Shown piece after piece: positions 52,665 through 53,023 of a DNA stretch of 64,000 bases. Origin of the DNA: Gemmatimonadota bacterium. GTDB taxonomy: Bacteria > Gemmatimonadota > Gemmatimonadetes > Longimicrobiales > Gaopeijiaceae. The stretch lies in contig JAJDYN010000014.1 in assembly GCA_022825135.1 (NCBI GenBank), positions 62,001-126,000 of the forward strand, in the 5' to 3' direction. Under the pieces are notes generated by a model. The model was not told where the DNA came from, ran no database searches, and saw only the letters and a program-made list of their open reading frames with translations. Each line of letters opens with the position of its first letter. Within the stretch, counting starts at the first letter, position 1. The position numbers and the translations under genes are program-made.

Positions 52665-53023
52665 CCCTCCCGGGTGAGCAGCGTCGCCAGCATCTCCGCG
52701 TTGTATCCCACCAGCAGCCGATCCCCACTGCGCATCGTGGGCGCGCGCAGCTTTCCGAAGCGGCTGCAGAGGAGGCCCACCAGGTCTTCGTCGGCGGGCC
52801 GCGCGGCGTTCAGATCGACGTGCACGATCTTCTTTCCCCTGGCGACGTAGAGGTCGCTCACGCCCTCCAGCACGCCCAGGACCTCGTCGCTCGTCACGGA
52901 ATTGCGCGTGGCGCTCTGCAGTTCCTCCGTCGCGATCTCGTTCTGCGCAAGAAACTCTTGCGTGCGCTTGCAACTGGTTCAGCCCGGGCGGTGATACCGC
53001 CATTCAACGGACGACGTGGCCAT
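52661..53023 (-). CDS. candidate ArsC/glutaredoxin-like selenoprotein; in-frame UGA (52979..52981) read as selenocysteine
   Basis: ATG 53023 with GGAGGG upstream; MATSSVEWRYHRPG[U][105 protein letters not shown]; UxxC in place of CxxC; hairpin downstream; ATGA overlap with the next gene. Confidence 0.75.
52946..52962 (-). other. candidate bacterial SECIS stem-loop
   Basis: On the minus strand CGCAAGA-GUU-UCUUGCG, perfect 7-bp stem, beginning 16 nt after the UGA, apical loop starting with G. Confidence 0.6.

Follow-up and report, generated by a model that had tools for sequence, protein, structure and literature searches.

An in-frame UGA at codon 15 of a minus-strand gene, followed closely by a short perfect hairpin, raises the question of whether this UGA is a stop codon or is decoded as selenocysteine (Sec) with the hairpin acting as a bacterial SECIS (bSECIS) element. 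The gene lies in a 64,000-nucleotide (64-kb) stretch of DNA from a Gemmatimonadota-like genome, the whole of which we call the window. On the comparative evidence given below, the hairpin is almost certainly a bacterial SECIS element. The positions of the features are collected in Table 1.

Table 1. Features of the locus in window coordinates.
Feature	Position	Strand	Evidence
SECIS hairpin (predicted), 7-bp stem and GUU loop	52946..52962	-	sequence, folding, covariation, absence in Cys orthologs
5' arm CGCAAGA	52956..52962	-	sequence
Apical loop GUU	52953..52955	-	sequence; GU invariant (45-sequence alignment)
3' arm UCUUGCG, with rare codons UUU and CUU	52946..52952	-	sequence, codon usage
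In-frame UGA, codon 15, predicted to be read as selenocysteine	52979..52981	-	sequence; TGA conserved at aligned site
Selenoprotein gene (predicted), ATG to terminal TGA, 120 codons, Sec codon 15	52661..53023	-	sequence, NF041106, Pfam ArsC
GGAGGG, likely ribosome-binding site, 4 nt before ATG	53028..53033	-	sequence (inference)
Homocysteine S-methyltransferase gene, neighbour	51636..52664	-	ATG overlaps selenoprotein terminal TGA (ATGA)

Position and stability of the hairpin

The sequence-only reading had described CGCAAGA-GUU-UCUUGCG, with 7 Watson-Crick pairs, 16 nt past the UGA, and this is exactly what the minus-strand sequence holds. The spacer between the UGA and the 5' arm is ACCAGUUGCAAGCGCA (16 nt, minus strand), the first loop G is nucleotide 24 after the UGA as had been claimed, and the hairpin (52962-52946) falls inside the coding frame (53023-52661). 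Folded in isolation, the 17-nt hairpin has an energy of -7.4 kcal/mol, and 1 of 200 shuffles was equally stable; in a 56-nt folding window it is the centroid structure, at -8.5 kcal/mol. This wider 56-nt segment as a whole is not unusually stable compared to shuffles (z +0.94), and therefore folding energy alone is insufficient as proof. The 64-kb window contains just 5 perfect stems of 7 bp with a loop of 3 nt, and only 3 of them, counting either strand, have G as the first loop base. On searching the genome for further copies of the hairpin model, we found only the one described here, and an Rfam search of the window and the hairpin region gave no useful match, Rfam being uninformative for short bSECIS elements. 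It may be noted that the UGA could be a real stop, left by a pseudogene or an assembly error, with the hairpin arising by chance from the codons that encode TQEFLA. The ordinary stability of the 56-nt segment agrees with such an origin, as does the protein sequence itself, TQEFLA favouring a partial palindrome. But redrawing the codons synonymously, with the usage of the neighbouring genes, yielded a stem of at least 7 bp at the hairpin position in about 0.1% of cases. The stem is built from codons that are locally rare: CUU, UUU and CAA make up 6%, 12% and 5% of the codons for Leu, Phe and Gln, respectively.

The gene and its protein family

With the UGA read as Sec, the frame gives 120 residues with the motif HRPG-U-TSC at codons 11-18, which includes the UxxC active-site motif (U-T-S-C). 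The product passes the NF041106 'ArsC family (seleno)protein' profile with 112 bits against a curated cut-off of 85, and the homology extends across the UGA, which argues against a genuine stop. Pfam ArsC is also passed (27.1 against 24). Membership among the Spx regulators was considered and rejected, as the scores with the Spx models are far under the family cut-offs (40.9 against 123 bits and 35.2 against 75), so that the protein is not an Spx member. The AlphaFold2 model has a mean pLDDT of 91.5, and its best Foldseek matches are Spx and ArsC-like structures with modest TM-scores of about 0.5-0.56. The protein resembles the thioredoxin-fold Spx and ArsC proteins in sequence and fold matches and in carrying a CxxC/UxxC where helix 1 begins, and differs from them in that Sec would replace the first Cys. 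Nothing sets it apart from the other proteins of NF041106 (ArsC_rel_Se_1), with which it shares an above-cut-off score, the UxxC and the UGA at the same place, and it is a further member of that family from a Gemmatimonadota-like genome. Arsenate reduction does not follow from the ArsC name, and any such activity is putative. The NF041212 (Uxx-star) profile had no match in the genome.

A literature search by phrase for an ArsC-type selenoprotein returned no match. The entry 'Arsenate reductase-like protein, NF041106, UxxC' appears in the list of prokaryotic selenoproteins given by a 2026 review (PMC13188914), and reports of ArsC-like selenoproteins date from 2006 and 2008 (PMC1794560, PMC2398784); the finding is therefore correct but ordinary in kind. 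The hairpin and the gene are a further case of a known type of signal and a known protein family.

Conservation of the UGA codon

Ten other genomes of the genus share the UGA, and it is kept across several phyla, which again speaks against a pseudogene or an assembly error. Of the 298 sequences collected (the window included), 266 have TGA at the aligned site, the remainder being mostly Cys codons. The nearest named homologs are mostly metagenome-assembled genomes (MAGs) labelled Gemmatimonadetes, with a few of the same group under other labels, and more homologs were found in MAGs that carry the labels Acidobacteria, Planctomycetes, Latescibacteria, Rokubacteria and KSB1. All 80 loci of a pattern-search set carry the UGA, a set that is biased to UGA genes because one of the two search patterns spans SECIS-coded residues; whole-genome profile searches are free of such bias. 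A regular-expression motif search for homologs proved too loose and was replaced by the profile search. In a survey of the class covering 399 genomes, 76 had a member above the cut-off, and every such match contained exactly one TGA. In Planctomycetota the profile searches gave ten stop-free members above the cut-off; nine carry Cys at the site, and the tenth, L285, aligns there with Asp. A scan of a viral collection found no relative.

Two departures from the common pattern were seen among the homologs. One genome (G497; loci L285 and L287) has a UGA copy and a second, stop-free copy in which Asp is aligned to the Sec position, and L285, where this Asp is aligned, was excluded from the Cys ortholog set. 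One UGA member (L091) has Tyr for the second motif Cys (U-T-G-Y) and keeps the hairpin.

Covariation of the stem

Covariation of the stem among orthologs that keep the UGA had been proposed as a check on the SECIS reading, and we found the stem to be kept with compensatory changes, notably at pairs 18-32 and 20-30. When all column pairs of 154 sequences were scanned without prior filtering, 18-32 came out as the top covarying pair by both measures. The window register is shared by 124 of these sequences, while 25 are shifted by one (CCCAGG-AGUU-CCUGGG type) and 5 fit neither. Among the 124 UGA genes sharing the register, pair 18-32 occurs as GC (98 genes), UA (17), AU (5) and CG (2), pair 20-30 as AU (108) and GC (16), and pair 23-27 as AU (110) and GC (10). 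The compensation runs across codons, ACG+GCG (Thr, Ala) alternating with ACU+GAG (Thr, Glu), and CAA+CUU with CGA+CUC, so that synonymous third positions track amino-acid changes on the opposite arm. In an alignment of 45 of these 124 genes, the doubly changed cells numbered 30 against 6.1 in shuffles and the covariation score was 0.380 against 0.187, with all slid registers being worse; these 45 were drawn from a set preselected for pairing at 5 or more of the 7 positions, and the paired percentage is therefore inflated. The locus offers a clear and well-powered case of SECIS constraint within a coding region: synonymous sites shift jointly with some amino-acid changes (Ala/Glu, Gln/Arg), which preserves the stem. 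Such compensatory changes also count against a chance hairpin behind a true stop, which we regard as very improbable.

Comparison with Cys orthologs and the published bSECIS model

Symmetric changes would equally preserve a DNA site, and the hairpin sequence is an imperfect palindrome, so an intragenic DNA-binding site or a terminator-like element has to be weighed against a SECIS element. The comparison with Cys-containing relatives bears directly on this. A fixed-position stem of at least 5 bp is present in 146 of 197 distinct UGA sequences and in none of the nine same-family Cys orthologs, all Planctomycetota (Fisher p = 1e-5, in a test that assumes independent sequences while those compared are related), nor is it found in any of 22 more distant Cys-containing ArsC relatives. 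The possibility that the stem is equally strong in Cys-encoding orthologs, by which the sequence-only reading could have failed, is thus not borne out (0/9 against 146/197). A DNA site or terminator-like element is very improbable given that the stem is missing at the same place in Cys orthologs, that the hairpin stands at a fixed distance from the UGA, that the loop GU is kept and that the hairpin model has no second copy in the genome.

It counts against the SECIS reading that 51 of the 197 UGA members, roughly one in four, lack a 5-bp stem at the hairpin position; many of them have another hairpin. A TQEFLA-like stretch is common among the Sec members and not among the Cys orthologs. In another family of the class, the UGA members (L096-L108) have no GUU hairpin; they have CACC-CGUGC-GGUG instead, nearer to the UGA (loop start at nt 19). 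Four Planctomycetota UGA members (L236, L244, L245 and L308) have no hairpin of at least 4 bp fitting the simple model, and thus another SECIS class may be used there.

The published bSECIS model has a loop of 3-9 nt, a stem of 4-16 bp, a G in the first two loop positions, a UGA-to-loop spacing of 16-37 nt and an MFE of at most -7.5 kcal/mol (PMC13188914). The hairpin agrees with this consensus in its upper stem (7 bp), its 3-nt GUU loop with G at the first position followed by U, and its UGA-to-apical-loop spacing (23 nt). It differs in that the loop is the smallest allowed and the isolated energy is -7.4 against -7.5 kcal/mol, a borderline value that depends on the computation, being -8.5 as the centroid of the 56-nt folding window. 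When the published limits (a loop of 3-9 nt, 4 or more stem pairs, a G early in the loop, the spacing and the -7.5 kcal/mol) were applied to isolated hairpins, 65 of the 197 UGA sequences passed, compared with an average of 9.25 for synonymously redrawn versions; among the Cys sequences, 1 of the 9 from the same family and 1 of the 22 others passed. The window hairpin and its congeners narrowly miss the energy limit (-7.1 to -7.4 kcal/mol).

Selenocysteine machinery and the proposed decoding

The same genome has selB (310 bits), selA (522) and selD (295), all above cut-off, and a tRNA-Sec (74.8 bits, anticodon UCA), which completes the set by which Sec decoding is recognised; a tRNA-Sec is also present in 8 of 8 genomes of homologs from other groups. 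Genome-wide reassignment of UGA to a standard amino acid, with an incidental hairpin, has the in-frame UGA in its favour and nothing beyond, and is the least probable reading of all given the full Sec machinery and the ordinary TGA stop that ends 5 of 7 genes checked, the selenoprotein gene included. Pseudogene or assembly error, DNA palindrome and genome-wide reassignment were all rejected on the evidence against each, while the SECIS reading draws support from the curated family, the Sec machinery, the UGA conservation, the covariation and the absence of the stem in Cys orthologs. SelB carrying Sec-tRNA-Sec would bind the mRNA hairpin, whose GU-containing loop starts 24 nt after the UGA, and the ribosome would decode the codon-15 UGA as selenocysteine. 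The predicted product is a 120-residue thioredoxin-fold ArsC/Spx-like protein with a presumably redox-active UxxC pair. The appropriate annotation is a full-length selenoprotein gene, not a truncated frame beginning after the UGA.

The downstream methyltransferase gene

Translation of the homocysteine S-methyltransferase gene is possibly coupled to that of the selenoprotein gene. As the selenoprotein stop overlaps the methyltransferase start (ATGA), SECIS-dependent readthrough could set methyltransferase translation, so that a sulfur/selenium methyl-transfer step would respond to selenium supply. We consider this unlikely. Outside the genus, the gene neighbourhood gave no functional link, and the gene order was not found except for one methyltransferase neighbour (L172). 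Within the genus, the ATGA overlap (52661-52664, minus strand) is also present in 9 of 9 congeneric loci (L130-L138).
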